Shown one piece after another: positions 7,955 to 31,559 of a DNA stretch of 64,000 nucleotides. Every line of letters begins with the position of its first letter. Within the stretch, counting starts at the first letter, position 1. Under the pieces are notes generated by a model. That model was given only the letters and a program-made list of their open reading frames with translations. It made no database searches and was not told where the DNA came from. The DNA is from an uncultured Spirochaetales bacterium. GTDB taxonomy: Bacteria; Spirochaetota; Spirochaetia; Sphaerochaetales; Sphaerochaetaceae. The translations under genes were made by a program, and so were the position numbers. The stretch spans positions 1 to 64,000 of the forward strand of contig CASDXQ010000003.1 in assembly GCA_949285145.1 (NCBI GenBank), in the 5' to 3' direction.

Positions 7955-9475
7955 ATGCATGTCATTGAGAAATATCTGAAAAAAGCCGGCACGGCGGCGA
8001 ATGGTGAGATGATCAATTATATCTCATCCCTGTCTCTCGTGAAAAAGGTCAGCCCTGAGACTGCTTCTCATATCGTAAAGGAGCTGGAGGATCAGCGATG
8101 CAGTTATCTGAAGCTTATTGCAAGCGAGAATTTCTCATCTCTTTCCGTTCAGGCTGCAATGGCAAACCTTCTGACGGACAAATATGCAGAAGGATACCCT
8201 TATCACCGCTTCTATGCAGGATGTGACAATGTGGATGCAGTTGAGACTCTGGCTGTTGAAAAAGCGAAAGAGCTTTTCGGTGCCGAGCATGCCTATGTCC
8301 AGCCTCACAGCGGAGCCGATGCCAACCTGTGTGCATACTGGGCGATCCTCAATACGAAAGTCCAGATGCCGCTTCTTGAGGATATGGGGATAACCAATGT
8401 CTCATCTCTCACAAGGGAAGACTGGAACAGGATAAGGACGGCATGCCACAACCAGCGTCTCCTCGGTCTTGATTATTATTCAGGTGGTCACCTGACACAC
8501 GGTTACAGACAGAATATTTCCGCCCAGCTTTTCGATGCCTATTCCTATACTGTCAACGAGAAGACTTTCCTTCTGGATTATGATGACATTGAAGCGAAAG
8601 TGAAGGAGATTAAGCCTCTGATCCTTCTTGCCGGTTATTCTGCATATCCCAGAAAGATAAATTTCCGCCGGATGAGTGAGATCGCACATGAAAACGGAGC
8701 CGTATTCATGGTTGACATGGCTCATTTCGCCGGTCTTGTGGCAGGAGGCGTTTTCACTGATGAATATAATCCTGTCCTGTGGGCAGATGTGGTTACAAGC
8801 ACTACGCACAAGACACTGCGCGGTCCGCGCGGCGGGCTTATCCTCTGCAAGGAAGAGTTCAGGGAATCAGTTGACAAAGGCTGTCCTCTTGTGATCGGAG
8901 GCCCGCTTGCTCATGTGATGGCTGCGAAGGCTCTGTGCTTCATCGAGGCTCTGACTCCTGAATACAGGGATTACGCAAGAAAGATTGTAGAGAATGCCCA
9001 GGATCTTGCCCTGGCTCTGAGAGAGGAGGGCTGCGTGATTCTCACTGGAGGAACTGACAACCATCTCATGCTGCTGGATGTGAGTCCGTTCGCTCTGAAC
9101 GGCCGTCAGGCGGAAAGCCTGCTGAGGGAGTGCGGCATAACGCTGAACAGGAATGCCCTGCCTTTTGACAAGAACGGTCCATGGTACACTTCCGGACTCA
9201 GGCTTGGCACACCGGCACTTACGACTCTCGGCATGGGAGAGAAGGAAATGAAGGAAATTGCCTCCATAATTGCCATGGTGCTGAAGAATGCGAAACCTGT
9301 AATTCTCACAAAGGGGGAAAACGCAGGCAAACAGAGCAGGAACAAGGCAAAGGTTCCTTCCGCCGTGCTTGAAGAGGCCCGCTCGAGAGTCTCATCTCTG
9401 CTCAGGTCTTTTCCGCTTTACCCACAGCTTGATCTTGACTTCCTCAAGGATGAATTCCTCATTGAGGAAGAGTGA
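7955..9475 (+). CDS. glyA: Serine hydroxymethyltransferase, long form
   Basis: PLP enzyme of 506 residues converting serine and tetrahydrofolate to glycine and methylene-tetrahydrofolate. It has LIASENF near the N-terminus, YAEGYPYHRFYAGC, and the PLP lysine in TSTTHKTLRGPRGG (Lys286). It is about 90 residues longer than the common bacterial enzyme. The extra length lies in an N-terminal extension and an insert around residues 130-175, as in other long SHMTs I associate with spirochaetes and chlamydiae. AGGAGG at 7941-7946 supports the ATG. Beside a purine-catabolism island it may also serve glycine/formate metabolism, which is inference. Confidence 0.95.
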   Translation: MHVIEKYLKKAGTAANGEMINYISSLSLVKKVSPETASHIVKELEDQRCSYLKLIASENFSSLSVQAAMANLLTDKYAEGYPYHRFYAGCDNVDAVETLAVEKAKELFGAEHAYVQPHSGADANLCAYWAILNTKVQMPLLEDMGITNVSSLTREDWNRIRTACHNQRLLGLDYYSGGHLTHGYRQNISAQLFDAYSYTVNEKTFLLDYDDIEAKVKEIKPLILLAGYSAYPRKINFRRMSEIAHENGAVFMVDMAHFAGLVAGGVFTDEYNPVLWADVVTSTTHKTLRGPRGGLILCKEEFRESVDKGCPLVIGGPLAHVMAAKALCFIEALTPEYRDYARKIVENAQDLALALREEGCVILTGGTDNHLMLLDVSPFALNGRQAESLLRECGITLNRNALPFDKNGPWYTSGLRLGTPALTTLGMGEKEMKEIASIIAMVLKNAKPVILTKGENAGKQSRNKAKVPSAVLEEARSRVSSLLRSFPLYPQLDLDFLKDEFLIEEE

Positions 9476-10836: not shown

Positions 10837-13800
10837 ATGGGTGACAGAATGAGAAGTGTACCTTTCACCGGACTGCTTGAAAGGATAAGCGGTGAGCTGA
10901 AAGGGCAGAAGAGTATCTTTTCAATACCTGAATACAGCTTCTACAGGAGTGAAGGAAAGCACAGCATAAAGGTTTTCACTCAGGAAGCTGCCACGCCGGT
11001 AGGACCTGCGGCAGGTCCTCATACCCAGCTTGCACAGAACATAATCACATCATATCTCACAGGTGCAAGATTCATTGAGCTGAAAACAGTACAGATAATG
11101 GACACACTTGAGATAGCAAAGCCGTGCATTGACGCGCGCGATGAAGGCTATAACGTCGAGTGGTCCACGGAATACACTCTCCCGAAAGCATACGATGAAT
11201 ACCTCAAGGCCTGGATAATCGTCCATCTTCTCGACATGTTCATGAATGAGGACTGGAAAAAGCCTTCATTCATCTTCAATATGTCGGTTGGCTACAATCT
11301 CGAGGGAATAAAGACCGAGAAGATGCAGCACTTCATCAACAGCATGCTTGATGCTGATGCGGACGGCCGCTTTGACGGCTATATCGCATCCCTTGACAAA
11401 GCCCTTGAGGCCGAAATTTTCAACGCAACGGTCTTTGAAGACAGGCAGGAAGATGCAAGGAAGAAGCTTTCCCTCATCAGCAAGTGTATTTCACCTTCTG
11501 TCACGATTTCCACCATGCACGGCTGTCCGCCGCATGAGATAGAGGCGATCTGCACATACATGCTCACAGAGAAAAAGATCGACACTTTCGTGAAGCTCAA
11601 TCCGACACTGCTTGGCTATGATACGGTGAGAAAGATTCTCGATGATCTCGGCTATGACTATATCGAGCTGCGACGTGAGAGTTTCGAACATGACCTCCAG
11701 TGGGACGATGCCGTTGCGATGCTGACAAGACTGAGAGAGAAAGCCGTAGCAGAAGGAAAGGGTTTCGGCGTCAAGCTCACCAACACCCTTGGCAACGTGA
11801 ACAACGGCGATGAGCTTCCCGGCGATGAGCGCTATATGTCCGGCCGCGCCCTGTTCCCTCTTTCCACAAGTGTCGCAAGAAGACTTTCCGAGGTCTTTGA
11901 CGGAAAGCTTCCGGTTTCCTACTCAGGCGGTGCCGGCGCCCTGAATATTAAGGAGCTTTTCGAAACCGGAATAAGACCCATAACAGTCGCAACAGATCTT
12001 CTGCATCCGGGCGGATATCTCAAACTTAAGCAGATGGCAGAGATCCTTGACTCAAGCGATGCATGGTCAATGGATCACATTGATGTGAAGAAACTGGAGG
12101 CTCTCAATGACAAGGCCGTATCCCCGTCATCTGCCTTCCACAAGGACAGAAGAGGTGAAGACCGTGTCAAGATAGGAAAGGAACTGCCTCTTACGGACTG
12201 CTATGTCGCACCATGCGTTGCATCATGTCCCATCCATCAGGATATCCCAGAGTATGTCTATCTCATGGGAGAAGGCCGCTATGCCGAAGCACTTGCAGTT
12301 ATCCTCGAGAAGAATCCTCTTGTGAACATCACCGGATGGATCTGCGATCATCAGTGCCAGCATCACTGCACCAGAATGGATTATGAAGGTCCGATTGCGA
12401 TCCGTGAGATCAAGCATCTTGCCGGCGAGCTGGGTTTTGCTGAATACCTCAGTGAGATATGGTCAGGCATTGAGGCTCCATCCGATGTGAAGGCAGCCGT
12501 TGTCGGTGCCGGTCCTGCAGGACTTGCCGCGAGCTATTTCCTCGCACGTGCCGGATACGATGTGTCTCTTTTCGAAAGGGAGGCGAAGGCCGGCGGTGTT
12601 GTCCGCAATGTCATCCCGGACTTCCGCATCCCGGAAGAAGTGGTTCAGAAAGATGTGGATTTCATCCTCTCATACGGTGTCAAGGCACATTTCAGCCAGG
12701 ATGCTTCAGCTCTGAGTGTGGAAGAACTCAGGAAGAAAGGTTTTGACTGGATCTTCTATGCAGTGGGAGCGGAGAAGGCAAGGGACAGCGGCATAGAAGG
12801 AAACGGAAAGATAGTTTCCGCAGTTTCATTCCTCAAGGACTACAAGAAAGGAGTCCTTCCCTCTGCCGGCTCAAAGGTTATCGTGGTGGGCGGCGGCAAT
12901 ACGGCAATGGATGCATCCCGCGCCGCAAGGAAGGCCGGATGTGATGTCACTGTCATTTACAGAAGAAGCCGTAAGGAAATGCCCTGCGATGCAGAGGAAT
13001 ACACAGCGGCTGTGAATGACGGCGTTTCATTCCGCTTCCTCACAAATCCCGCAACTTTCAATGACGGCGTACTTACTGCCGACAAGATGAAGCTCGGCGA
13101 GAAGGATTCTTCGGGAAGACCCCGTCCCGTTCCGTCGGGTGAGAAGGTCTCTTTTGATGCCGACCTTGTCATCAGCGCCATAGGCGAGAAAGCGGACAGC
13201 CTTCTGCTTGAAGGCCTAGAACTGGAAAGGGAGGACAATTTCAGCTTTGCCTCTCATGTGTTTGTCATCGGCGATACCGTCACCGGTCCCTCCACCGTTG
13301 TCAGGGCAATCGCATCAGCGCAGAATGCGGTCAACAGATGCATTGACCTCACACTGGATGAAATCGCTGACGGCGATGAAGATGATGAGTGTGAGGATGA
13401 GGAATGTTCATGTCATGACCATGATCATCACCATCATGAACACGATGAGGACTGTGACTGCGGCTGTCATGATCATGAGGAACATGATGATGAAGATGAG
13501 ATGAGCGACGAGGAATACCGCAGTCAGGAAGATGCCTATTTCAGGGAGCTTGTCACGAAGAAGAGTGCGATAAGAGAAGAAAAACAGTGTGATACAGCTT
13601 CATTCCTCAAAGGAGAAGCCGGACGCTGTCTTGAGTGTTCTTACCTTTGCAACAAGTGCGTTGATGTATGTCCGAACAGGGCAAATGTCGCGCTTGACAT
13701 GAGGGAGAGCGGACTGTTTGAGGATCCCTTCCAGATCCTTCACATTGATGCATACTGCAATGAATGCGGCAACTGCGAGACTTTCTGTCCGTATTCCGGC

Positions 13801-14040
13801 GGTCCGTATAAGAAGAAATTCACTCTCTTCTCCAGCGAAGGAGATTTCTCTGACAGCACAAATGACGGTTTCTATGTATCAGGCAGCAAGGTTGTTGTGA
13901 GAATTGAAGGGGAAGTGAAGACCGGCGTGATTGATGACAACATGGATCTTGAGATCGACATCGATGAAAGGATCCTTGCAATGATCAGCGAGGTTTTCAT
14001 CTCTTATCCTTATCTGCTCGGCGCGGTTGATGCCGAGTGA
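10837..14040 (+). CDS. ygfK: YgfK, putative iron-sulfur flavoprotein reductase of purine/urate catabolism
   Basis: A 1067-residue oxidoreductase. The N-terminal part (about 1-430) looks like a dihydroorotate-dehydrogenase-type barrel. A GltD-like part follows: a cysteine-rich segment (CVAPCVASCPIHQ, then CDHQCQHHCTR), an FAD site VVGAGPAGLAASYFLARAGY and an NAD(P)H site VVGGGNTAMDASRAA. Two 4Fe-4S motifs close the protein (CLECSYLCNKCVDVCP and CNECGNCETFCP). The layout resembles dihydropyrimidine dehydrogenase. In E. coli ygfK lies in the anaerobic purine/selenium cluster; it was named a putative selenate reductase and has been linked to anaerobic urate breakdown. An insert at residues 845-889 is extremely rich in Asp, Glu, His and Cys. 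AAGGAG at 10826-10831 selects ATG 10837. Confidence 0.92.
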   Translation: MGDRMRSVPFTGLLERISGELKGQKSIFSIPEYSFYRSEGKHSIKVFTQEAATPVGPAAGPHTQLAQNIITSYLTGARFIELKTVQIMDTLEIAKPCIDARDEGYNVEWSTEYTLPKAYDEYLKAWIIVHLLDMFMNEDWKKPSFIFNMSVGYNLEGIKTEKMQHFINSMLDADADGRFDGYIASLDKALEAEIFNATVFEDRQEDARKKLSLISKCISPSVTISTMHGCPPHEIEAICTYMLTEKKIDTFVKLNPTLLGYDTVRKILDDLGYDYIELRRESFEHDLQWDDAVAMLTRLREKAVAEGKGFGVKLTNTLGNVNNGDELPGDERYMSGRALFPLSTSVARRLSEVFDGKLPVSYSGGAGALNIKELFETGIRPITVATDLLHPGGYLKLKQMAEILDSSDAWSMDHIDVKKLEALNDKAVSPSSAFHKDRRGEDRVKIGKELPLTDCYVAPCVASCPIHQDIPEYVYLMGEGRYAEALAVILEKNPLVNITGWICDHQCQHHCTRMDYEGPIAIREIKHLAGELGFAEYLSEIWSGIEAPSDVKAAVVGAGPAGLAASYFLARAGYDVSLFEREAKAGGVVRNVIPDFRIPEEVVQKDVDFILSYGVKAHFSQDASALSVEELRKKGFDWIFYAVGAEKARDSGIEGNGKIVSAVSFLKDYKKGVLPSAGSKVIVVGGGNTAMDASRAARKAGCDVTVIYRRSRKEMPCDAEEYTAAVNDGVSFRFLTNPATFNDGVLTADKMKLGEKDSSGRPRPVPSGEKVSFDADLVISAIGEKADSLLLEGLELEREDNFSFASHVFVIGDTVTGPSTVVRAIASAQNAVNRCIDLTLDEIADGDEDDECEDEECSCHDHDHHHHEHDEDCDCGCHDHEEHDDEDEMSDEEYRSQEDAYFRELVTKKSAIREEKQCDTASFLKGEAGRCLECSYLCNKCVDVCPNRANVALDMRESGLFEDPFQILHIDAYCNECGNCETFCPYSGGPYKKKFTLFSSEGDFSDSTNDGFYVSGSKVVVRIEGEVKTGVIDDNMDLEIDIDERILAMISEVFISYPYLLGAVDAE

Positions 14041-14050
14041 GGGAGGTGCC

Positions 14051-15394
14051 ATGGCAGTAACTGTAATAAAGAATGTCCGCATAATGCAGACAATGGAGCC
14101 GGTTGAGGTTCTTGAGAATATGGATGTCGTCATCACTGACGGCACCATAAGTGCAGTCGCACCGGGAATCGGAAGTGACGTGACTGCGGATGTCGTGATC
14201 GACGGCAGCGGCAAGACACTGATACCAGGCAATGTATGTGCCCATCATCATTACTATTCCGGTCTGAGCCGCGGCATGCTGATAAGCGCAGGACCCCAGA
14301 CGGATTTCATTCAGGTCCTGAAGGAATGGTGGTGGCGTCTTGACAGGGGACTTGACGAGGAGGCCTGCTATTATTCTTCCCTGATCTGCTCGCTTGATGC
14401 CATCGCAAGCGGCACCACATGTGCGATAGACCATCATGCCTCTCCATCATACATAAGGGGAAGCCTCTCAACCATTGCCAGAGGAATGGAGGAAGTTGGA
14501 ATAAGAGGCGCCACCTGCTACGAGGTTACCGACAGGAACCGCGGCATGAGCGAGGTGGAGGAAGGTGTTGAGGAGAATATAAGGTTTGCAAAGGAGTGTG
14601 ACGGGAAGAAGAAAAACGGTCCTCTTCTTGTCCAAGCCATGATAGGCGGACATGCTCCCTTCACGCTGCCTGATGAAGCCCTGTCCCTGATGAAGGGTGC
14701 GTGTGAGGAGACAGGACGCGGCATTCACCTGCATGCGGCTGAAGACAAGTATGATGTGGTTCATTCACACCATATCTACAACAAGGATATCGTCGCACGT
14801 CTGGAGGAGCACGGACTTCTTGTTGAGAAGAGCCTTATGGTTCACTGCCTGCACCTCAGTGAAAGCGAGATTGATGCGATAAACAGGGCCGGTGCGTTCC
14901 TTGCACATAACCCGCGCTCCAACATGAACAACCATGTGGGGTATCTGAAGAACATAGCGAAGGTGGACAACCTTGTGCTCGGCACTGACGGGTGCGGCGG
15001 CAATATGTTCGAAGAGATCAAGATAGGTTTCTTCAAGCACAAGGATGAAGGCGGCCCTTTCTGGCCTGCCGATTTCCTTAAGGCCCTCTCGCGCGGCAAC
15101 AGGCTTGTTGAGCGCATCTTCAGCGACGGACGGCGCTGGGGCCGCATTGAGGCCGGATACACTGCCGATCTCGTGCTTCTTGACTACAAGAATCCGACAC
15201 CGCTTGTGAATGCCAACGGTGCCACCCATTTCGTGTGGGGCATGAGTTCGAATGCGGTGCATACGGTACTGGTGGACGGCAAGGTCATTCTTGAGAACCG
15301 TGAATTCAGGAATATCGATGCAGACAGGATTTACAGACAGGCAGCTTCTGTTGCACAGAGAGTGTGGAAGGCTGTCGACAAAATAAGATCATAG
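14051..15394 (+). CDS. ssnA: SsnA, putative aminohydrolase of the purine/selenium cluster
   Basis: Amidohydrolase-superfamily enzyme of 447 residues. Metal ligands are seen in CAHHHYYSG (about residue 61), HLHAAEDKYD, HCLHLSE and LGTDGCGGN. The family hydrolyses C-N bonds such as those of purine rings and their open-ring products. It matches the SsnA family found beside ygfK and ygeY. GGGAGG at 14041-14046 fixes the ATG at 14051, ten bases after the ygfK stop, so they share a transcript. Confidence 0.92.
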   Translation: MAVTVIKNVRIMQTMEPVEVLENMDVVITDGTISAVAPGIGSDVTADVVIDGSGKTLIPGNVCAHHHYYSGLSRGMLISAGPQTDFIQVLKEWWWRLDRGLDEEACYYSSLICSLDAIASGTTCAIDHHASPSYIRGSLSTIARGMEEVGIRGATCYEVTDRNRGMSEVEEGVEENIRFAKECDGKKKNGPLLVQAMIGGHAPFTLPDEALSLMKGACEETGRGIHLHAAEDKYDVVHSHHIYNKDIVARLEEHGLLVEKSLMVHCLHLSESEIDAINRAGAFLAHNPRSNMNNHVGYLKNIAKVDNLVLGTDGCGGNMFEEIKIGFFKHKDEGGPFWPADFLKALSRGNRLVERIFSDGRRWGRIEAGYTADLVLLDYKNPTPLVNANGATHFVWGMSSNAVHTVLVDGKVILENREFRNIDADRIYRQAASVAQRVWKAVDKIRS

Positions 15395-15404
15395 GAGAAG
15401 ATTT

Positions 15405-16625
15405 ATGAAGATTCAAGATCAGATTCGTGAGCTGGCTGAAAAATACCGTGACTATACGGCAGAGAATCTCAGCAAGCTCGTAAAGACGAAGAGCTATTCC
15501 TCAAGGGAAGAGGATGTATGCCGTCTTATCGTTGAGCTGTGCAAGGAAGCGGGATTCGATGAAGTGAGGATTGACGGACTTGGCTCCGTTGTCGCCCGTG
15601 TGGGTTACGGTCCCAAGGCAATGGCATTTGATGCCCACATAGACACCGTTGAGGTGGGAAATATCAAGAACTGGAATTTCGATCCCTTCTCAGGTGAGAT
15701 TAAGGACGGCCTCGTATACGGACGCGGAGCCTCCGACCAGAAAGGCGGTGCTGCAAGCATGATCACGGCAGGACGCATCCTCAAGGAACTCGGCTACGGC
15801 GGCGAATACTCCATCTATTTCACCTTCACTGTCATGGAGGAGGACTGCGACGGCATGTGCTGGAAGTACCTCATCGAGGAAGAGAAGTTCAAGCCGGATC
15901 TCCTTGTCTCGACCGAGCCCACAAGCTGCAGGATCTACCGCGGTCACAGGGGCAGAATGGAGATAAGAATCATCCTGCGCGGAATCTCCTGCCACGGCTC
16001 AGCGCCTGAGAGAGGCGTAAGTGCCGCATACAAGGCTGCACGCGCGGCTCTTGCCATCGAGCAGCTCAACAAGGATCTCCAGCCGGATGAGGACAACTTC
16101 CTCGGAAAGGGAACCATAACCGTCAGCCAGATGGATGTAAAAGGCCCCAGCCAGTGTGCCGTTGCCGATTACGCCATGATCTACTGTGACAGACGTCTCA
16201 CATGGGGAGAGGATGCCGATCTTGCAATCAGCCAGGTAAGGGAGTATGTTTCAAAGGCCACGGGTGATGATCCTGATTCAATCATCGTCGAGATGCCGGA
16301 TTACGGAAAGACAGGCTGGACGAACAAGGAATATTCACAGGAGCTTTACTTCCCGACATGGAAGCTTGATGCCGATCATCCTCTTGTGAAGGCTGCCGTG
16401 AAGGATTATGAGACTCTCTACAGCAAGGAACCTGTCGTCGACAAGTGGACATTCAGCACAAATCTTGTCGCAACCACGGGTCGCCACAGGATTCCGGCCA
16501 TCGGTTTCGGACCGGGCGACGAGGCTCAGGCCCATGCCCCGAACGAGATCAACAGGGTCGAGGATCTGGTGATCTGTGCGGGCTTCTATGCGCTGCTTCC
16601 GTACTGCATCGAAGGTAAAGTCTGA
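15405..16625 (+). CDS. ygeY: YgeY family M20 hydrolase, selenium/purine-linked
   Basis: A 406-residue M20-type metallohydrolase. FDAHIDTVEVG carries the first metal His and Asp, GRGASDQKGG carries the bridging Asp, and TVMEEDCDG the catalytic Glu pair. M20 enzymes cleave amide or ureido bonds. YgeY has been placed in the late steps of anaerobic urate degradation (ureido-type intermediates toward diaminopropionate), which is family knowledge rather than something read here. It starts ten bases after ssnA stops and is the last gene of ygfK-ssnA-ygeY. Confidence 0.92.
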   Translation: MKIQDQIRELAEKYRDYTAENLSKLVKTKSYSSREEDVCRLIVELCKEAGFDEVRIDGLGSVVARVGYGPKAMAFDAHIDTVEVGNIKNWNFDPFSGEIKDGLVYGRGASDQKGGAASMITAGRILKELGYGGEYSIYFTFTVMEEDCDGMCWKYLIEEEKFKPDLLVSTEPTSCRIYRGHRGRMEIRIILRGISCHGSAPERGVSAAYKAARAALAIEQLNKDLQPDEDNFLGKGTITVSQMDVKGPSQCAVADYAMIYCDRRLTWGEDADLAISQVREYVSKATGDDPDSIIVEMPDYGKTGWTNKEYSQELYFPTWKLDADHPLVKAAVKDYETLYSKEPVVDKWTFSTNLVATTGRHRIPAIGFGPGDEAQAHAPNEINRVEDLVICAGFYALLPYCIEGKV

Positions 16626-20269: not shown

Positions 20270-20974
20270 GTGAGGGAAATCTTCAAAGCCGCAGAGCTTC
20301 AGGAAGCTTTCAGCCTGAAGGAAAAAGGAGCTGTCTACTTTGCAGGCGGCAGTGAGATACTGCGCCTTGGCAGCAGTGTGGACAAGGACAGGTCACTCAT
20401 TGATGTGAACACAATTCTTTCACATGAGATAAAAAAGGAAGGAGGCTTTCTCGTCATCGGGGCAGCTGTGACATTCCAGGAGATCCTCGGGTGCGGCTTT
20501 TCTCCCGAATGGCTGAAGAAGGCTGTACATCTGATGGCAAGCCAGGCACTGCGGAATCAGGCCACGATAGGAGGGAACATAGCGTGCATGAGGGATGACA
20601 GCTATCTCATTCCATCGTTGCTTGCATCCGGTGCATCTCTGACAGTCTATGGTGCGAAAGGTCTTAATTCCATTCCACTTGAGGACTATGTGAGAAAAGG
20701 CGGCTGCAGCTGTCTTATCCTTTCAGTGAGCATTCCATCTGATGTGAAAGTCGCATTGAAACGTTTTTCACGCAGCGCATCAAGTCACAGTGCGCTCAAC
20801 ATCGCCGCATCTTCCCTCGGGGTTTTCGCCTGTGTGAAATCATCAGGGATCGCATTGTCTCTGGATGAACTTGAAAAACTTGAATACAGGGATGATATAA
20901 CCGGCAGCGGAGAATACAAGAAATACCTTGCCCTGGAGGAAGCCGGGCGTCTCATGAAGGAGGTGAATGCATGA
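20270..20974 (+). CDS. ygfM: FAD-binding molybdenum hydroxylase subunit (YgfM-like)
   Basis: A 234-residue FAD-binding subunit related to the XdhB/CoxM family, with VYFAGGSEILRLGS near the N-terminus and NQATIGGNIACM near residue 100. It is shorter than XdhB. It sits directly before xdhD and is coupled to it by ATGA, as is ygfM in the E. coli cluster, so it is likely the FAD partner of XdhD. AAGGAGG (20258-20264) favours GTG 20270 over GTG 20264, which lies inside the ribosome site. Confidence 0.85.
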   Translation: MREIFKAAELQEAFSLKEKGAVYFAGGSEILRLGSSVDKDRSLIDVNTILSHEIKKEGGFLVIGAAVTFQEILGCGFSPEWLKKAVHLMASQALRNQATIGGNIACMRDDSYLIPSLLASGASLTVYGAKGLNSIPLEDYVRKGGCSCLILSVSIPSDVKVALKRFSRSASSHSALNIAASSLGVFACVKSSGIALSLDELEKLEYRDDITGSGEYKKYLALEEAGRLMKEVNA

Positions 20975-23847
20975 ATATTTCCTTCATCCTCAACAATAAG
21001 AAAGTAACATGGAACCTTGAGCCGGATCAGCGCGTCCGTGAAGCCCTGTATGCGCACGGCTGTGTCACGGTGCGCGACAGCGATGACGGCGAAGGTTTCA
21101 CAGGCAGTGACATAATCATTTACAACGGAATGCCGCGTTCTTCAAATCTCATGCTCTGTTTCCAGCTTGAAGGAGCTGATATCAGGACTGCCGAATCGCT
21201 GAAGAAGGGAAAGGCGCTGAATGATGTGCAGGAAGCCATGATAAAAGCCGGTGTTGTTCAGAGCGCATACAATTCCCCGACAGCGGCCCTCATCCTCACT
21301 CATCTGCTTGAGAAAAAGCCCGATGCGACAAGAAATGATGTGAAGGAGGCTCTTTCCTCCCTCTTCATAAGGGATGCGGGGTATGAGCATTTCTATCTTG
21401 CTGTCCGTCTTGTACAGGAGAAGAGAAAGACCGGCAGGTATCAGAGTTCTGTAAGTCCCACCTTCCGTGATAACCTTGAGTACATCGGAAAGCCGATGGA
21501 CAAGGTAGACGGGTATGCTCTTGTCTCTGGCGACAAGGTATTTGTTGAAGACAAGGTCGAGCCGGGTGCCTGTGTCCTCAAGGTTCTCCGCTCCCCGTAC
21601 GCCATGGCTTATATAAGGAAAATCGACACGAAGGAAGCCGAAGATCTTGAAGGAGTGGAAGCTGTCATCACTCATGAGAACTGTCCTGATGTATATTACA
21701 TGCAGGCCGGTCAGGGAAACCCCGAGCCCAGTCCTTATGACCGAAGACTCTTTAACCGCAAGGTGCGTCATGTTGGCGACAGGGTTGCCGCAGTTGTCGC
21801 AAAGGATGAGGAGACAGCGCTTAAGGCACTCTCGCTGATTCGTGTGGAATACGAGCCGGTAAAGCCTGTATTCACAGTCGAGGAAGCGATGGAAGATGGT
21901 GCATCGCTTGTACATAACGGCAAAGTGTCATACGTCTCCGGCGCTCCTGAAAATCTTGATGAGTACAACAGGAATGCGGATGAGAGGGACGGGCAGGTCA
22001 TTTACCAGTTCCCCCTTCATGGGGACATAAGGCACAACATAGCAGCAGGGGCTCATGGCGGCATCGGCGATGTTGAGAAGGCTTTCCGTGAAAGCGATGC
22101 CGTAGTCGAGGCTACATACCAGACCAGCCAGGTTCAGTGCACTCCTCTGGAACCGCATGTGTGCTACAGCAAGATGGAAAACGGTCGTCTGGTTCTTCAC
22201 TGCTCGACGCAGGTTCCGTATCATGTGAGAAGAATTGTCGCAACAGTATGCCGGATTCCGGAAAACAAGGTTCATGTCATAAAGGAAAGAGTCGGCGGCG
22301 GTTACGGTTCAAAGCAGGATATCCTCGTGGAGGATCTGTGCGGATATGCGACATGGCTGACCGGACGGAACATTTATTACCGCAATACAAGAGAAGAGGA
22401 GTTCATTGCCAATTCCACCCGTCATCCGATGAGGCTTACCGTGAAGATGTCGGGAAACAAGGACGGAAGGATAACCGGTATATATATGGATGTCAGGGCA
22501 AATACAGGACCGTACGGCAATCACTGCCTTACCGTTCCGATGAATGCAAGCAGCAAGACTCTGCCTCTCTTCAAGGTCGAGAATATGTATTACGACCTGA
22601 CAACCTATTACTCCAACATACCTCCGGCCGGTGCGTACCAGGGATACGGTGCTCCCAAAGGCTACTTCGCAATCATGAGTGCGATGGATGAACTTGCCCG
22701 CAAGCTCGGTGTTGATCCGCTTGAGATGGCACTTAAGAATGCAGTCGATGAAGGCTACATGCTTGAAATCCTGAAAGGTCTTGGCGAAGGAAGGGAAGGC
22801 ACTGTCGTTCCTGTCGGCTCCTGCGGTGTCAAGGAAGCGCTGAAGAAAGGCGCCGAGATGATCAGATGGGGAGTCAGGGAGAAATCTCCGGATCCGGACT
22901 GGGAAATTGGAAAAGGTTTTGCCATGATACAGCAGGGTTCCGGTCTGCCGGGTCTTGACCAGTCAAATGCACAGTGCAAGCTCCTGCCGGATGGCAGTAT
23001 AGTCCTGCTTTCAGGCGGTGCCGATATCGGAACCGGACTTGATACGATCTCTGCGAAGATAGTATGCGAGCTGCTGAAGGTGGATCCTTCCCGCGTGACT
23101 GTTGTCTCCGGCGATACTGACAGCTGTCTTTTCGACACAGGTGCATATGCATCAAGCGGTACGTACTTCTCCGGCAATGCAAGCCTCAATGCGGTAAAGG
23201 ATCTTAAGGAAAAGATGCTTGCAGAGGCTGCCCTTCAGATGAATGAGGATGTGAATGATCTGGATGTCGAGGCACCCGGATTTGTCGTCTCCAGAAAGAG
23301 CGGAGCAAAGCTCAGTTATGAGAAACTCAGCCATGATTCTCTTGCAGGCGATGGCAGGGGCGCCATCATAGGAACGGGCAGTTTCGCAACTGGAAACTCC
23401 GCAATCCCGTACGGTGCGCATTTCGCACAGGTTGCGGTGAACAAGGTTACAGGAGAAATCAAGGTTCAGAAGTTCTATGCACTTCAGGATGCCGGAACTC
23501 CGATCAATCCCGAGCTTGCCCTCTGCCAGATGTACGGTGCGGCTCAGAAGAGTATCGGGCACACGCTTTATGAAGATATGGTTCTTGATGAGAGCGGCAA
23601 GTGCATCAGTGCCGACTTCACAGACTACGGTGTGCCCATGATCGAGGAAGCTCCGGAGGATTTCAAGGCGGTTCTCATCGATGTGAATGACCAGTATGGT
23701 CCTTTCGGCGCGAAGAGTATTTCAGAGATAGCCACGAACGGCGCAGCTCCCGCTATTGCAAATGCAATATATGATGCGGTGGGTGCAAGAGTCCGCAGCT
23801 GGCCGATCACACCGGAAAAGATACTCCGTGCTCTCGGAAAAATCTGA
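20971..23847 (+). CDS. xdhD: XdhD/YgfN, putative selenium-dependent purine hydroxylase
   Basis: A 958-residue molybdenum hydroxylase with a short N-terminal ferredoxin-like region fused to the catalytic domain. It closely follows E. coli XdhD in segments such as SDDGEGFTGSD, VKERVGGGYGSKQDI, GAYQGYGAPKG, SGGADIGTGLDT, ISGDTDSCLFDTGAYASSG (first residue V here) and GPFGAKSISEI. The N-terminal domain has lost the cysteines that hold [2Fe-2S] in XdhC, a family feature, so it needs outside electron carriers. The final Glu of GPFGAKSISE is the catalytic base. Its place in the island supports a role in purine or urate oxidation. Confidence 0.94.
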   Translation: MNISFILNNKKVTWNLEPDQRVREALYAHGCVTVRDSDDGEGFTGSDIIIYNGMPRSSNLMLCFQLEGADIRTAESLKKGKALNDVQEAMIKAGVVQSAYNSPTAALILTHLLEKKPDATRNDVKEALSSLFIRDAGYEHFYLAVRLVQEKRKTGRYQSSVSPTFRDNLEYIGKPMDKVDGYALVSGDKVFVEDKVEPGACVLKVLRSPYAMAYIRKIDTKEAEDLEGVEAVITHENCPDVYYMQAGQGNPEPSPYDRRLFNRKVRHVGDRVAAVVAKDEETALKALSLIRVEYEPVKPVFTVEEAMEDGASLVHNGKVSYVSGAPENLDEYNRNADERDGQVIYQFPLHGDIRHNIAAGAHGGIGDVEKAFRESDAVVEATYQTSQVQCTPLEPHVCYSKMENGRLVLHCSTQVPYHVRRIVATVCRIPENKVHVIKERVGGGYGSKQDILVEDLCGYATWLTGRNIYYRNTREEEFIANSTRHPMRLTVKMSGNKDGRITGIYMDVRANTGPYGNHCLTVPMNASSKTLPLFKVENMYYDLTTYYSNIPPAGAYQGYGAPKGYFAIMSAMDELARKLGVDPLEMALKNAVDEGYMLEILKGLGEGREGTVVPVGSCGVKEALKKGAEMIRWGVREKSPDPDWEIGKGFAMIQQGSGLPGLDQSNAQCKLLPDGSIVLLSGGADIGTGLDTISAKIVCELLKVDPSRVTVVSGDTDSCLFDTGAYASSGTYFSGNASLNAVKDLKEKMLAEAALQMNEDVNDLDVEAPGFVVSRKSGAKLSYEKLSHDSLAGDGRGAIIGTGSFATGNSAIPYGAHFAQVAVNKVTGEIKVQKFYALQDAGTPINPELALCQMYGAAQKSIGHTLYEDMVLDESGKCISADFTDYGVPMIEEAPEDFKAVLIDVNDQYGPFGAKSISEIATNGAAPAIANAIYDAVGARVRSWPITPEKILRALGKI

Positions 23848-24075: not shown

Positions 24076-25350
24076 ATGAGTCAGGAATATTTCGATACTT
24101 TTTGTGAAATTCTGAATGAGGAGCTTCAGCCTGCACTGGGCTGTACCGAACCGATTGCGATTGCCTACGCGGCAAGCATGATGAGGCAGACGCTTGGATG
24201 TATTCCCTCCTTTATAAAGATCAGAACAAGCGGGAACATAATAAAGAACGTCAAGGCTGTCACAGTTCCAAATTCAGGTGGTATGAAAGGTATTGAGGTT
24301 GCTGCAATACTGGGCATTCTCGGCGGCCGTGCTGATCTTGTCCTTGAGGTTCTCTCCTGCATCACTTCAGGACAGATAGAAGAGACAAAGAAACTTATTG
24401 CGGATGGTTATGCATCTGTGCAGCTTGCGACAGGGGTTCCTTCCCTTTATATAGAAATCACAGGAGAAAAGGACGGACATTCGGCTCTGTGCATCGTTTC
24501 GGGAGAACATACGAACATCACAAGACTTGAGAAGGACGGAAATGTCATAATCGACAAGAAGTCATGTGCAAATGAAAACGAAGTGAAGACTGACAGGAGC
24601 TCTCTTTCAGTATCCCGCATCATAGATTTTGCAAAGAATGTTCCTCTGGATGCTATAGACAAGGTCATAACACGTCAGATTGACTACAACAGTGCGATTG
24701 CAAGGGAAGGTCTGTCAAGGAAGTACGGCGTTTCTGTCGGACGTACGCTGCTGACTCATTACGATGCCTCCGATGTGAGGATCAGGGCACGTGCAATGGC
24801 CGCTGCAGGCTCTGATGCAAGGATGTCGGGCTGTTCTCTGCCCGTGATAATAAATTCAGGTTCTGGAAATCAGGGGCTTACTGTTTCGCTTCCTGTCATA
24901 GAGTATGCAAAGGAATACAGGAAAACTCATGAGGAGCTTGTAAGAGCCCTTGCGCTTTCGAATCTCATTGCTGTTCATCAGAAAAGATATATAGGTCCTC
25001 TGTCTGCTTTCTGCGGGGCTGTGAATGCTGCAACAGGTGCAGCTGCCGGTATCTGCTTCCTGCTCGGCGGCAGTGATGAGGAAATAAGCCAGACAATCAC
25101 GGATGTGCTTGCAAATGTCGGAGGCATAGTATGCGACGGGGCGAAACCCAGCTGTGCTGCAAAAATATCTTCAGCACTTGAGGCTGCGATACTGAGTTAT
25201 GAGATGACAAAGGAAGGCAACTGCTTCAAAGGCGGTGAAGGCCTTGTCAATTCCGACATCGAGAAGACAATCGAGAGTTTCGGAAGGGTCGGACGTGAAG
25301 GCATGAAGGAAACTGATGCCGAAATACTGAAGATCATGCTAGATAACTGA
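24076..25350 (+). CDS. cyuA: L-cysteine desulfidase / UPF0597 family (CyuA-YhaM-like)
   Basis: A 424-residue protein of the serine-dehydratase-alpha-like family. ALGCTEPIAIAYAA near residue 20 carries the first cluster cysteine, and further conserved cysteines lie around YIGPLSAFCGAVNAATG and GGIVCDGAKPSCAAK. Family members are [4Fe-4S] enzymes that release sulfide and ammonia from cysteine to give pyruvate. In the selenium island it could act on cysteine or a related amino acid; this is inference. The 3' end overlaps the convergent gene by 17 bases. Confidence 0.85.
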   Translation: MSQEYFDTFCEILNEELQPALGCTEPIAIAYAASMMRQTLGCIPSFIKIRTSGNIIKNVKAVTVPNSGGMKGIEVAAILGILGGRADLVLEVLSCITSGQIEETKKLIADGYASVQLATGVPSLYIEITGEKDGHSALCIVSGEHTNITRLEKDGNVIIDKKSCANENEVKTDRSSLSVSRIIDFAKNVPLDAIDKVITRQIDYNSAIAREGLSRKYGVSVGRTLLTHYDASDVRIRARAMAAAGSDARMSGCSLPVIINSGSGNQGLTVSLPVIEYAKEYRKTHEELVRALALSNLIAVHQKRYIGPLSAFCGAVNAATGAAAGICFLLGGSDEEISQTITDVLANVGGIVCDGAKPSCAAKISSALEAAILSYEMTKEGNCFKGGEGLVNSDIEKTIESFGRVGREGMKETDAEILKIMLDN

Positions 25351-26236
25351 AAAGCACAGTCACTTCGCCTCCACATGTCATGCCGAGTTCTCCATCCTTG
25401 CTGAGGTTATAAGTCTTTATGTATGATCCAGTGCACAGTGACGCTTCCTTTTTTGCTTCTTCTTCAAGCGCTCCTCCTCCTATGGTGCCGCTAGTAATAT
25501 TCTGTGAGTTCACAATAAGAATCTGACCTTCACGTGCAGGAGTGGAGCCGGAGGCCTTCAGCACTCTGCAGATCACGCAGTTTCTCTCAGATGCAAGGGT
25601 CTTTATAAGAGAAGGGCTGACTATGCAGGCATTCTTCTCTTTTCTGTATACGGAAATTATTTCTGCCATGATTGATACTGCGATTTCCTGAGGTGTGAGT
25701 GCGTTTATTGAAAGTCCGATGGGACTGTGCACTTTGGAAAGCTTCTTTTCACTTATTCCTTTCTCTATCATCTGCTCAAAACAGTATTTGATTTTATTTT
25801 TTGAACCTATCATTCCGATATAGGAGCTTTTTCTTTTGAGACAGTAGTATAAACAATCACTGTCATAGGAATGTCCGTGTGTGAAAATGCAGAAATACGG
25901 GTTAATTATCTTATTAAGCTTTCTTACAGGAAGCTTTTCGAATGAAGCATGGATGAACTCAGTCAATGGCGGGAAGCAGTCCTTCATCCCGCTTCTGTCA
26001 TCGATGACTGTCACCGCGAGGCCGCATTGCTGTGCGACCGGGACAAGGGACTGTGCGATATGACCGCCTCCGAACAGCACAAGATGTACAGGGTAGGTTA
26101 ATGTACTTGTGTACTCTCCCTCCTCTCCGATATATTCATGTGCATTGCCCTCAGCATCGATGCTGACAGAGACACTCACCTGTTCACAGTCAAGTCTTTT
26201 CTCAAGTTCTTTATATATATTTGTGTGTTCACTCAT
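25334..26236 (-). CDS. XdhC/CoxI-type molybdenum hydroxylase maturation factor with swapped domain order
   Basis: A 300-residue protein that binds molybdenum cofactor and helps insert the sulfido or selenido ligand in xanthine-dehydrogenase-type enzymes. The Rossmann part comes first ([14 protein letters not shown] near residue 50, then VIDDR), and the XdhC_CoxI part comes last ([16 protein letters not shown] near residue 225 and [12 protein letters not shown]). In usual XdhC proteins the order is the reverse. It follows a NifS-like desulfurase with an 8-base overlap, so the two are co-translated. This pairing parallels XdhC and its NifS sulfur donor in Rhodobacter. Confidence 0.85.
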
Positions 26237-27365
26237 TGATCACCTCATCCAGTGTTGATGCAAGTATTTCAATCTCCTCATCGCTTGTGAAAGGGGATGC
26301 GGAGATGCGCACTGTTCCCTGCGGGTAGGTTCCCAGTGCTTTGTGGGCAAGAGGAGCACAGTGAAGGCCGACTCTTGTCTCAATTCCTCTTCTTTCATTC
26401 AGAGCCCAGCATACCTGTGCAGGATCCATGTTTTCCGTGATGATGGAGAAAAGAGCTGTATGATGCTCAGGTACAAAGTCGCCTGCAACAGATATTCCGT
26501 TTATGCTCCTCAGCTTTTCGTAAAGGGATATTTTTACATCAGAAAGTCTGGATGAGAGAGAGTCCCTGTTTGCAGCGAAATAATCCAGTGCAGCCTCAAA
26601 ACCGCACAGTGCCGGAGCATTCAGCGTACCGGCTTCAAATTTGTCGGGAAGGAAGGAAGGCATATCAAGACTGTCCGAGATGCTTCCCGTTCCTCCTGCA
26701 ATCAGAGGCGTGAGACGCGCTGCTAAATCATCGCTGAGTATCATGCCGCCAAGACCTTCCGGACCCATGAAGCCTTTGTGTGCGCTGAAAGCAAGTGCGC
26801 TTATTCCAAGTGAATTGAAGCCGATGCGGCAGAAGGGGGAGGCCTGTGCGCTGTCAACTATCAGAGCCAGGCCGTGGGCCGATGCACACTCCGCTGCCTT
26901 TTCCAGGTCTGCGGTTATGCCGCTGACGTTTGAGGCAGCGTTAATTATAAGAGCTCTTGTGTTGTTCTGGACAAGGGAATGGAAGCTGTCAAAAAGCGTA
27001 TTGCCCCTGCCATCATCCGGAAGCAGGGTGAACGGTATGCGGTGAAGGGAAAGAGATCTCAGCACGGCATTGTGCTCGAATGCTGTTGTGATCACATGAT
27101 CCCTGTCGGTAAGAAAGCCTGCAATGATTGTGTTCATGCTTTCGGTGAGACCGGAAGAGAAGACAGGTATCCTGCCACCGGCACAGAACACATCTGCTGT
27201 TTTCTCCCGTATTGAAAACAGACTTTCCTCTTCTTTTCTTCCGCTCCTGCCGTATGTCCTGTTGACGTTCACGCACTCTTCATCCAGAAATCTGCTTACA
27301 GCCTCGCTGACACCCGGAGCTTTCGGATAGCTTGTCGCTCCGTTGTCAAAATAAATCCTTCTCAT
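26229..27365 (-). CDS. Cysteine desulfurase family protein (Se-dependent molybdenum hydroxylase cluster type)
   Basis: PLP-dependent class V aminotransferase-fold enzyme of 378 residues. It begins [17 protein letters not shown], has the PLP lysine in [15 protein letters not shown] and the persulfide cysteine in [15 protein letters not shown]. It matches the desulfurase subgroup found in selenium-dependent molybdenum hydroxylase clusters (EF2568-like). It probably supplies sulfur or selenium to the XdhC-type factor encoded next. The ATG at 27365 stands seven bases after a perfect TATAAT on the minus strand and has no ribosome site. Confidence 0.88.
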
Positions 27366-27372
27366 AGCCGGT

Positions 27373-27430
27373 ATTATAGCAGAAGATGAATGAAAGTGCA
27401 TGAAAATCATTGTATTTTGAAAAATATAAT
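27373..27430. promoter_or_regulatory. Divergent -10 elements of the desulfurase gene and yedE
   Basis: On the minus strand TATAAT (27378-27373) lies 7 bases before the desulfurase ATG. On the plus strand TATAAT (27425-27430) lies 6 bases before the yedE ATG. Both starts lack a ribosome site, so both transcripts may be leaderless. No good -35 was found for either. Confidence 0.55.
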
Positions 27431-27436
27431 GGTAGC

Positions 27437-28516
27437 ATGGAAAACATGAAAATATCATCAGAAAGAAGAAATCTGATTCTTACAGGTGCACTTGTCGCTG
27501 TTGCGGCATTTGTTCTCGTGCTTCTCGGCAATCCCGGCAACATGGGATTCTGCATTGCCTGTTTTCTGCGCGATATAGCAGGAAGCTTGGGGTTGCAGAG
27601 CGCTGCGACTGTGCAATATATGAGACCTGAAATACCCGGTCTCGTACTCGGAGCATTCATCATTTCGGTAATAAAAGGCGAGTTCAATCCACGATCCGGC
27701 TCATCTCCCGTGATCCGTTTTCTCATGGGTGCCGGCGTTTCAATCGGAGCGCTTGTATTCCTTGGATGTCCCCTGCGTATGGTTCTGCGTCTTGCAGCAG
27801 GAGATCTCAATGCACTCATGGGGCTTATCGGATTCGTAATGGGTGTCGCGGTGGGTTCAGTATGCCTGAATATGGGATTTTCACTCGGGCGTACAAAAGA
27901 AACAACCCGGCTTGAAGGCAGCGCGATAAGCATAATAAGCATCATCCTTCTTATTATTCTTGCTTGTGCACCGTCCCTGCTGCGTTTCAGTACATCCGGA
28001 CCTGGCAGCATGAGGGCTCCTGTAATCGCATCACTTGCAGCCGGACTTCTTGTGGGTGTTTTCGCCCAGCGTTCCAGAATGTGTTTCGCCGGCGGTCTGA
28101 GGGATCTTTTCCTTATCAAGGACACAACCCTCATCACAGGTTTCATCGCTGTCTTCCTCTGTGCACTCGTGCTTAACATTGCAGGCGGAAATTTCACTCT
28201 TGGCTTTGAAGGTCAGCCTGTCGCCCATACCGATGCGCTGTGGAACATCATGGGCATGACTGCAGTCGGCTTCGGTTCGGTGCTTCTCGGCGGCTGTCCG
28301 CTCAGACAGCTCATTCTTGCAGGAGAAGGCAACAGTGACAGTGCGGTGACAGTTCTCGGTCTTATAGCAGGCGGCGCGGCAGCGCATAACTTCTCGCTTG
28401 CATCTTCAACTGACGGCCCTACAAACGGTGGCAAAACCGCCGTGATCCTCATTCTGCTGTTTTTTGCAGCAGTTGCGGCAGTTTCAATTTATGTGAACAG
28501 GAGGAAAGAGAATTGA
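27437..28516 (+). CDS. yedE: YedE family selenium-metabolism membrane protein (putative selenium transporter)
   Basis: A 359-residue inner-membrane protein of the YeeE/YedE family with about ten hydrophobic segments and two internal repeats, each with a conserved cysteine region: [13 protein letters not shown] with [16 protein letters not shown], and [12 protein letters not shown] with [16 protein letters not shown]. The family is found with selD and yedF and is thought to import selenium or sulfur compounds. It heads the operon yedE, yedF-like, DUF3343, selD. Confidence 0.92.
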
Positions 28517-28518
28517 GT

Positions 28519-28719
28519 ATGCTTGACACTTCCGGTTTCAGCTGCCCTGAACCGGTCATAATGACGAAAAAAGCCCTTAAGGACAGGCCTGCATCGCTGA
28601 GCGTCATTGTCGATAACGTTGCAAGCCGCGAAAACGTCACACGCTATGCCGAGGCGACGGGGTACAAGGTAAAGAGGACGGACAAGGATGGGAAATGGAT
28701 TCTTTCTCTGACAAGGTAG
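28519..28719 (+). CDS. TusA/YedF-like sulfur/selenium carrier, single domain
   Basis: A 66-residue SirA/TusA-domain protein beginning MLDTSGFSCPEPVIMTKKAL, with the Cys-Pro pair that carries persulfide or perselenide. Selenium-linked YedF proteins are often about 200 residues with a second DsrE-like domain; here only the first domain is present. ATG 28519 is preferred over TTG 28513 because of the purine-rich AGGAAAGAGA upstream. Its 3' end overlaps the next gene by 25 bases. Confidence 0.85.
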   Translation: MLDTSGFSCPEPVIMTKKALKDRPASLSVIVDNVASRENVTRYAEATGYKVKRTDKDGKWILSLTR

Positions 28720-28943
28720 TCATTACATTCCATTCTCATTATGATGCGAATAAACAGAAGAGGAAGCTTGAGGACAATGCTCTCAAAGCTTCTCTCATTC
28801 CGGTTCCGCGTTCCCTTTCTTCAAGCTGCGGAACCGCTCTGGTAATGGATGAGCATGATTTTGACACATCTCTTCTGATCACTACCATTGAAGGAGCATT
28901 TGTTTTTAAGGAGGGCAGATGGTCAGGCTTACCAAAAGTGTGA
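28695..28943 (+). CDS. DUF3343 putative Se/S carrier protein
   Basis: An 82-residue protein matching the DUF3343 family (VVITFHSHYDANKQKRKLED, then IPVPRSLSSSCGTAL with the single conserved cysteine). The family is annotated as a putative selenium/sulfur carrier and occurs next to selD and yedF. It overlaps both the gene before (25 bases) and selD (25 bases). Confidence 0.85.
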   Translation: MDSFSDKVVITFHSHYDANKQKRKLEDNALKASLIPVPRSLSSSCGTALVMDEHDFDTSLLITTIEGAFVFKEGRWSGLPKV

Positions 28944-29938
28944 AGACAAGCGGCTGTGCCGCCAAGCTTCCGTCAAAGACTCTGAATGAAATACTATCAT
29001 CTCTTCCTCTCATGGAGGATGAGAATCTTATTGTAGGCTTTGAGACCAGCGATGATGCCCTGGTCTATGACCTGGACGGTGAGAATCTTCTTGTCGAGTC
29101 CGTTGATTTCTTTCCTCCCGTTGCCGATGACCCTTATGAATTCGGACAGATAGCAGCTGCGAATGCGCTTTCTGATCTTTATGCGATGGGAGCAGTGCCG
29201 AAACTTGCGATGAACATAATGTGTTTCCCATCCTGCATGGATCTTTCCATCATGAAAGACATACTCCTCGGTGCACAGGATAAGGCAAGGCAAGCCGGAT
29301 GCGTGATCGCGGGCGGACATACAATTGCAGATTCTACGATCAAATTCGGCCTTGCCGTGACAGGCTTCACGACAAAGAAAAGGCTGTGGACAAATAAAAG
29401 CGCAAGAGAAGGGGATGCGATAGTCATCACTAAGAATCTCGGAGTCGGAATAATCAATACTGCGGCCAAGGCGGATATGGCAGATGAATGCGATGTGAAG
29501 GCCGCTCTTGAGAGCATGAAAACTCTTAACAGAAAGGCCTTTGAGACTGCCTGTCGCCATGATATTCATGCTGCGACAGATATAACAGGATTCTCCCTGC
29601 TGGGGCATCTGTTTGAAATGGCACAAGCCGCATCCCTCTCTGTACGTCTCAATTCTTCCGCTCTTCCTTATTTTCCTGCGTCCCTCGAGCTTGCCCGTCT
29701 CGGACTCATACCGGAAGGTGCATACCACAACAGGGATTACGTTGAGGACAAGGTGCGCTTCGCATCATCAGTTCCAAGAGAACTTATAGACATAATGTTC
29801 GATCCGCAGACATCAGGACCGCTGTGTCTTGCGATGAGTGAGGAGGATGCCATTTCCTTTGTAAGGGAATTCGGAGAGCCTGCGGCAATTATAGGATGTT
29901 TCACAGCCAGAGGCTGCAGCGTGATTGATGTCAGCTAG
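28919..29938 (+). CDS. selD: Selenide, water dikinase (selenophosphate synthase)
   Basis: A 339-residue enzyme making selenophosphate from selenide and ATP. The active site reads SGCAAKL (Cys13, Lys16), so this is the cysteine form, not selenocysteine. SVDFFPPVADDPYEFG and IAGGHTIADS are the ATP/Mg2+ binding segments, and DITGFSLLGHLFEMA and MFDPQTSGPL are family signatures. AAGGAGG before ATG 28919 is strong. With yedE, a carrier and no selA or selB in view, the selenophosphate may serve the molybdenum hydroxylase selenium cofactor. That is inference from neighbours. Confidence 0.96.
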   Translation: MVRLTKSVKTSGCAAKLPSKTLNEILSSLPLMEDENLIVGFETSDDALVYDLDGENLLVESVDFFPPVADDPYEFGQIAAANALSDLYAMGAVPKLAMNIMCFPSCMDLSIMKDILLGAQDKARQAGCVIAGGHTIADSTIKFGLAVTGFTTKKRLWTNKSAREGDAIVITKNLGVGIINTAAKADMADECDVKAALESMKTLNRKAFETACRHDIHAATDITGFSLLGHLFEMAQAASLSVRLNSSALPYFPASLELARLGLIPEGAYHNRDYVEDKVRFASSVPRELIDIMFDPQTSGPLCLAMSEEDAISFVREFGEPAAIIGCFTARGCSVIDVS

Positions 29939-30359: not shown

Positions 30360-31559
30360 ATGAAGACAAAAGAAGAAATCAGGAGCATGATTGAGGAGCT
30401 TTCAAAGAAAGATACAAGCAGAATGTATCTCAATGACTTTTTCCACACATGGAAGGAAAGCGATGATGAGCTGGCTGCAGTATTTGAAGTTGCCGAAATA
30501 CTGAGGGCAATGAGAGAAAACAACATCTCTACGAAGGTATTTGATTCAGGTCTTGGCATTTCCGTCTTCCGCGACAACTCAACCCGCACCCGTTTTTCTT
30601 TTGCCTCAGCCTGCAACCTTCTCGGTCTTGAGGTTCAGGATCTTGATGAGAAAGTCAGCCAGATCGCTCACGGCGAGACTGTAAGGGAGACTGCAAACAT
30701 GGTTTCCTTCATGGCTGATGTCATCGGCATAAGAGACGATATGTACATCGGCAAGGGACATACATACATGAAGACTGTTGCCGACAGCGTTGAGGAAGGC
30801 TACAAGGACGGCGTTCTCGAGCAGAGGCCCACAATAGTCAACCTCCAGTGCGATATCGACCACCCGACACAGACAATGGCTGATGCACTTCACGTCATCA
30901 ACCATTTCGGAGGAGTTGAGAACCTGAAGGGAAAGAAGATCGCAATGACATGGGCTTATTCACCGTCTTACGGCAAGCCTCTTTCCGTTCCTCAGGGTAT
31001 CATCGGTCTCTTCACACGTTTCGGCATGGAAGTCGTGCTTGCACATCCGGAAGGCTATGAGATCATGAAGGATGTCGAGGATGTCGCAGCGGAGAATGCA
31101 AAGAAGGCAGGCGGTTCATTCAGGAAAGTCAACACAATGGAAGAGGCTTTCAAGGATGCCGATATAGTATATCCGAAGTCATGGGCACCGTACGCAGTGA
31201 TGGAAGAGAGGACAAAGCTGGTCGGAGAAGGAAAGTTCGAGGAGCTCAAGGATCTTGAGAAGAGGTGTCTTGAGAATAATGCGAAGTTCAAGGACTGGAC
31301 ATGTACCGAAGAGCTGATGAAGACGACAAAGGACGGAAAGGCTCTCTACATGCATTGTCTCCCTGCTGATATCACAGGACTCAGCTGCAAGGAAGGCGAG
31401 GTCGAGCAGTCTGTATTCGACCGCTATCTTGTTCCTCTTTACAAGGAAGCCAGCTACAAGCCGTACGTCATTGCTGCAATGATCTTCCTGTCAAAGTTCA
31501 GCAATCCTTCAGCCAAGCTTGCCGAGGTGCTTGCTGATTCAAAACCGAGAGTGAAATAA
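30360..31559 (+). CDS. ygeW: YgeW, knotted carbamoyltransferase
   Basis: A 399-residue member of the aspartate/ornithine carbamoyltransferase superfamily. The carbamoyl-phosphate loop is FRDNSTRTRFSF (about residue 70), and HPTQTMADALH and LYMHCLPADITG are further signatures. It matches YgeW, found with ygeX/ygeY/ssnA. Its proposed role is phosphorolysis of a ureido group (such as 2,3-diureidopropionate) to carbamoyl phosphate, allowing ATP formation by a carbamate kinase; that is literature-level inference. AAGGAG supports the ATG at 30360. No carbamate kinase gene is in the window. Confidence 0.94.
   Translation: MKTKEEIRSMIEELSKKDTSRMYLNDFFHTWKESDDELAAVFEVAEILRAMRENNISTKVFDSGLGISVFRDNSTRTRFSFASACNLLGLEVQDLDEKVSQIAHGETVRETANMVSFMADVIGIRDDMYIGKGHTYMKTVADSVEEGYKDGVLEQRPTIVNLQCDIDHPTQTMADALHVINHFGGVENLKGKKIAMTWAYSPSYGKPLSVPQGIIGLFTRFGMEVVLAHPEGYEIMKDVEDVAAENAKKAGGSFRKVNTMEEAFKDADIVYPKSWAPYAVMEERTKLVGEGKFEELKDLEKRCLENNAKFKDWTCTEELMKTTKDGKALYMHCLPADITGLSCKEGEVEQSVFDRYLVPLYKEASYKPYVIAAMIFLSKFSNPSAKLAEVLADSKPRVK

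Follow-up and report, generated by a model that had tools for sequence, protein, structure and literature searches.

The DNA analysed here (the window, 64,000 nucleotides) belongs to a 2.06-Mb, 96%-complete spirochaete genome which, among named relatives, is nearest to uncultured Spirochaetales and Bullifex porci. It harbors a reductive uric-acid cluster in which ygfK lies together with ssnA, ygeY, xanthine-dehydrogenase-like subunits, ygfM/xdhD-type subunits and ygeW (Table 1). The cluster also holds an XdhC/CoxI protein, a YedE-type (Sulf_transp) transporter and a SelD-like protein; these genes occur with a class-V aminotransferase gene at positions 25334-29938, beside the purine genes, suggesting a selenium-dependent molybdenum hydroxylase trait (the transporter being of the sulphur/selenium type). 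A serine hydroxymethyltransferase gene and a serine-dehydratase-like gene flank the purine cluster (7955-9475 and 24076-25350) and perhaps provide a glycine-serine-pyruvate outlet.

Table 1. Features of the ygfK region, in window coordinates.
Feature	Position	Strand	Basis
ygfK, flavin-dependent purine (yanthine) reductase	10837..14040	+	TIGR03315, 1282 bits
Cys/His/Asp/Glu-rich insert, YgfK residues 846-890, predicted disordered loop	13372..13506	+	composition; gap in E. coli YgfK; pLDDT <50 at residues 848-887
Repeat unit 1, ECSCHDHDHHHHEHDE	13402..13449	+	register from CxC spacing and consensus of 155 CxC units
Repeat unit 2, DCDCGCHDHEEHDDEDE	13450..13500	+	register from CxC spacing and consensus of 155 CxC units
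ssnA, amidohydrolase, partner enzyme of YgfK, immediately 3' of ygfK	14051..15394 (frame could open at 14027)	+	NF005540, 529 bits
ygeY, M20-family hydrolase, uric-acid pathway	15405..16625	+	NF009555, 497 bits
xdhD-type Mo/Fe-S subunit	20971..23847	+	TIGR03313, 1204 bits
ygeW carbamoyltransferase, uric-acid pathway	30360..31559	+	TIGR03316, 765 bits

With the ygfK start picked by alignment with the E. coli N-terminus (MGDIMRP), the protein has 1067 residues and is a full-length member of the TIGR03315 (Se_ygfK) family, covering model positions 1-1012 of 1012 with 1282 bits against a cut-off of 835. A Pyr_redox_2 domain (residues 553-828) is followed by a C-terminal 4Fe-4S region (about 930-986), and a Foldseek search with the protein outside the insert matches Nfn/StnABC, the glutamate synthase small subunit and dihydropyrimidine dehydrogenase. 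YgfK of E. coli, a flavin-dependent reductase, dearomatises 2,8-dioxopurine, with activity seen only when SsnA is present (PMC12507026). By analogy, the window's YgfK would use NAD(P)H to reduce 2,8-dioxopurine in a reaction coupled to SsnA, as demonstrated for the E. coli enzyme. Its genomic partnership with SsnA and XdhD/YgfM is as expected for the family: ssnA follows on the 3' side, the TIGR03313 match exceeds its cut-off, and the cluster also contains a weaker match to TIGR03312. Short YgfK-like ORFs (569-742 aa) occur in L088, L089 (Coriobacteriaceae), L091 and L092 (Planctomycetota), in which the N-terminal part leads directly into the C-terminal 4Fe-4S part with no intervening FAD/NAD(P)H module; we take them to be reminiscent of UacX of C. 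difficile.

In the window's YgfK, the linker that leads from the FAD/NAD(P)H domain to the C-terminal 4Fe-4S domain contains an insert of 45 residues (846-890), of which 10 are His, 6 Cys and 24 Asp/Glu. Against the remainder of the same protein, binomial tails for this enrichment are 5e-9 for His, 5e-4 for Cys and 5e-9 for Asp/Glu, and no other 45-residue segment from the open frames of at least 100 codons in the window has a higher His+Cys content. The original prediction of an acidic, His/Cys-rich stretch in this reading frame is confirmed: its "at least ten" histidines are exactly ten, the domain matches bear out its position between the NAD(P)H-binding part and the 4Fe-4S domain, and the statement that E. 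coli YgfK lacks it is borne out by a seven-sequence alignment in which the insert stands opposite a gap. An assembly error or low-complexity artefact is ruled out, as the insert is present in dozens of separately assembled MAGs and in the isolate Bullifex porci (L042).

Within residues 846-890 a Pfam search returned no match, and no metallothionein family. In the AlphaFold2 model, calculated on 29 window and locus sequences, YgfK has a mean pLDDT of 84.6, and residues 848-887, bracketed by helices 821-849 and 891-909, fall below 50. The insert is thus predicted to be a disordered loop. Because it is placed between two helices at such low pLDDT, the core fold need not change to accommodate it.

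The stretch is a variable repeat array, a feature that goes beyond the initial description. The consensus of 155 CxC units is E-C-x-C-G-H-H-H-[DE]-E-[DG]-E, the spacing from one CxC to the next is mostly 11-12 residues within the clade, and YgfK proteins contain from 0 to 8 CxC motifs. Copies of the unit inside one protein diverge at synonymous sites, so not all of them are fresh duplications. Codons were compared in 18 independent close pairs (17 with the insert, 1 without). Cys codons show 22 synonymous vs 3 replacement differences and His codons 31 vs 14, counts in which pairwise alignment of repeats tends to underestimate replacements; Asp and Glu interchange freely (34 events) with acidity maintained. 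Only one in nine single-base changes is synonymous for a Cys or His codon, and without selection replacements should therefore dominate. The codon counts thus point to purifying selection on the Cys and His codons of the insert. An acidic low-complexity linker that arose by repeat slippage and is neutral or related to solubility would fit the repeat-prone GAT, GAC, CAT and TGT codons, the wide range of CxC numbers and the free Asp/Glu swaps. However, six Cys and ten His are superfluous for an acidic linker, the apparent selection acts on precisely these residues, and the synonymous divergence of the copies implies more than recent duplication; this origin is very improbable.

In a comparison across bacterial groups of the kind originally proposed, with the linker extracted from about 80 YgfK proteins, the insert is restricted to the Bullifex-related spirochaete family. 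In the window's own family clade the linker has 88-147 residues and 1-8 CxC motifs (lineages that lost the insert excepted), and elsewhere it has 59-104 residues and zero CxC (E. coli, Enterococcus, Collinsella, Treponema-type and other spirochaete families). Together with the E. coli gap, this rules out an insert common to all YgfK proteins. The window's YgfK shares with E. coli YgfK the TIGR03315 family, the domain order and the operon partner ssnA, but its linker is longer (119 residues vs 74) and contains 8 Cys and 10 His, against 0 Cys and 1 His in the E. coli linker. The suggestion of a selenium- or sulfur-handling surface fares poorly, since the insert is absent from YgfK in selenium-linked molybdenum-hydroxylase clusters (E. 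coli, Collinsella).

In a maximum-likelihood tree of YgfK calculated without the insert, a quick reconstruction with some long branches in which deep placements outside the clade are uncertain, all insert-bearing proteins fall into one clade of 54 sequences (SH-aLRT 99). This is consistent with a single gain at the base of the family's YgfK clade. One subclade has lost the insert (L045, L085 and the partial L084), L016 has a reduced one, and L053, L056 and L059, with L073 of the same subclade, retain CxC pairs and have no His. As judged from these sequences, the insert shares sequence traits with metal-storing appendages of the HspA type: it is Cys/His-rich, lineage-restricted and carried by a conserved protein.

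A second protein carries a like array. A DNA pattern for E-C-x-C-G-H-H-H, run on 61 family genomes, matched ygfK, one other gene family and one doubtful ORF. The other family encodes a TPR protein found in 113 of 119 genomes, unrelated to YgfK and unlinked to it; its gene (G000:C33:14162-15319; L150, L170) lies upstream of tsaE-tsaB-trxB-like genes, and it adjoins tsaE, tsaB and a thioredoxin-reductase-like gene in all three genomes checked. The Cys/His-rich C-terminal tail of the TPR protein is absent in deep branches and at its longest reaches about seven or eight units; in the window's own genome it reads DHECHHHHHDHGEHCNHDHGEDAEEDEEE. Other His-rich proteins of this genome were sought by sequence pattern: the credible genes from an HHHH search were those of YgfK and the TPR protein, alongside two doubtful ORFs, and a CxCxHxH search gave no credible gene. 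A literature search on spirochaete His-rich TPR proteins found no report.

The TPR protein bears on whether the insert might assist assembly of YgfK's own 4Fe-4S clusters, as an iron donor or Fe-S aid, or act as a CxC-based redox or oxygen sensor. The C-terminal 4Fe-4S domain comes right after the insert, and the CxC-only subclade would suit such a role; yet insert-free homologues retain the cluster cysteines, and the like array sits on a TPR protein in which no Fe-S domain is recognised, making this function rather improbable.

The two appendages appear to change in concert. The genomes of L084 and L085, which lost the YgfK insert, also have TPR tails without Cys/His (that of L045 gave no TPR match), and L074 has the longest array among its sister species on YgfK and the TPR protein alike. 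G224, G227 and G304 combine a rich YgfK insert with an absent or poor TPR tail. Across 27 genomes on one tree, using counts of a repeat, insert and tail show no raw correlation in Cys+His (Spearman 0.10, p=0.63); with phylogenetically independent contrasts r is 0.63 (sign-flip p=0.0024), and p=0.015 after removal of the three largest contrasts. Control contrasts against the cores of YgfK and the TPR protein are null, and for Cys alone the contrast correlation is not significant. After phylogenetic correction the Cys+His counts of both appendages thus seem to evolve together, a result that is suggestive rather than proof.

Cys pairs, triple His and acidic residues in a disordered segment, with conserved ligands, gained or lost as a unit and present on an unrelated protein too, give the insert the look of a metal-binding appendage. 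The favored reading is a lineage-specific, disordered appendage of YgfK that binds metal, with a Zn(II) buffer or store, borne by cytosolic proteins, as its likeliest role, a proposal about as probable as its negation. Each CxC-G-HHH-acid unit would act as a chelator of a borderline divalent metal, for which Zn(II) is the likeliest candidate, every YgfK molecule would thereby hold a small reversible reserve, and the array of the TPR protein would contribute to one cell-wide buffer. CxC motifs with His can also bind Ni, Co, Cu(I) or Fe(II). Zinc is the first choice because the pathway's hydrolases come from families whose members typically use Zn, the genome has a ZnuABC-type uptake system, and HypB was not found in a search of that genome. 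The repeats, the apparent selection on Cys and His, the loss in a subclade and the second tail lend indirect support to the metal binding or storage first proposed for this stretch, and nickel, one of the metals then named, becomes less likely. Nickel or cobalt storage in the manner of Helicobacter HspA/Hpn or rhizobial HypB has a basis in the His/Cys-rich or His-rich tails that bind nickel in HspA (PMC3856676) and HypB (PMC7055735), but it is quite unlikely here given that no HypB was found, a result that also led to rejection of a role in Ni hydrogenase maturation.

Delivery of metal to a neighbor is a secondary and weaker part of this Zn(II)-buffer proposal: the YgfK array might locally donate metal to SsnA, which is presumed to be metal-dependent and acts with YgfK. 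A stronger version, in which the insert is a local metallochaperone that specifically loads Zn into SsnA (perhaps YgeY and hydantoinase too), draws on gene order and on the published assay. In the spirochaete family's loci ssnA lies within about 25 nt of ygfK, and it is immediately 3' at all clade loci with room, save one with a truncated ygfK match; the assay included 1 mM ZnCl2, and YgfK by itself gave no product (PMC12507026). However, the same adjacency and coupling are seen with insert-free YgfK (E. coli; L045, L085), and the TPR tail co-evolves with the insert yet has no such partner. Because adjacency is equally strong without the insert, delivery to SsnA is not favored, and a dedicated metallochaperone is unlikely.

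Buffering by YgfK and the TPR protein leads to a broader proposal, which is tentative and somewhat doubtful: this family may have built a distributed metal buffer by grafting like CxC-G-HHH-acid arrays on at least two unrelated, unlinked proteins, tuned jointly as metal supply or toxicity shifts between hosts. If so, some bacteria store metal on repeat arrays attached to ordinary enzymes, not on dedicated proteins, and such storage would be recognisable from joint array expansion on unlinked genes. It would also connect metal supply with a gut uric-acid pathway that was elucidated recently, in spirochaetes including species of the pig gut and other animal guts.

Related metal-binding segments are known from several proteins. 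Bacterial metallothioneins likewise combine CxC motifs with His as mixed ligands. In contrast to these small free proteins, the insert is internal to a 1067-residue enzyme and matches no metallothionein profile, which places it outside that family. HypB and SlyD also possess His-rich or His/Cys-rich segments, proposed as Ni stores in the case of HypB (PMC7055735), but these reside on maturation proteins of Ni enzymes, whereas YgfK has no GTPase or isomerase domain. The closest likeness is to HspA of H. pylori (a GroES). Its His/Cys-rich C-terminal extension binds Ni and is a proposed store of it; cells in which the extension is deleted contain less nickel and are more sensitive to the metal (PMC3856676). 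Both are lineage-specific Cys/His-rich appendages on a conserved protein, missing in orthologues elsewhere. Unlike the HspA extension, the array has another carrier, is internal in YgfK, consists of tandem CxC-G-HHH units, is strongly acidic and occurs in a genome where HypB was not found, and its likeliest metal is Zn(II). By analogy, the insert would extend the known HspA type of metal-storing appendage to an array within YgfK, with a parallel on a second protein.
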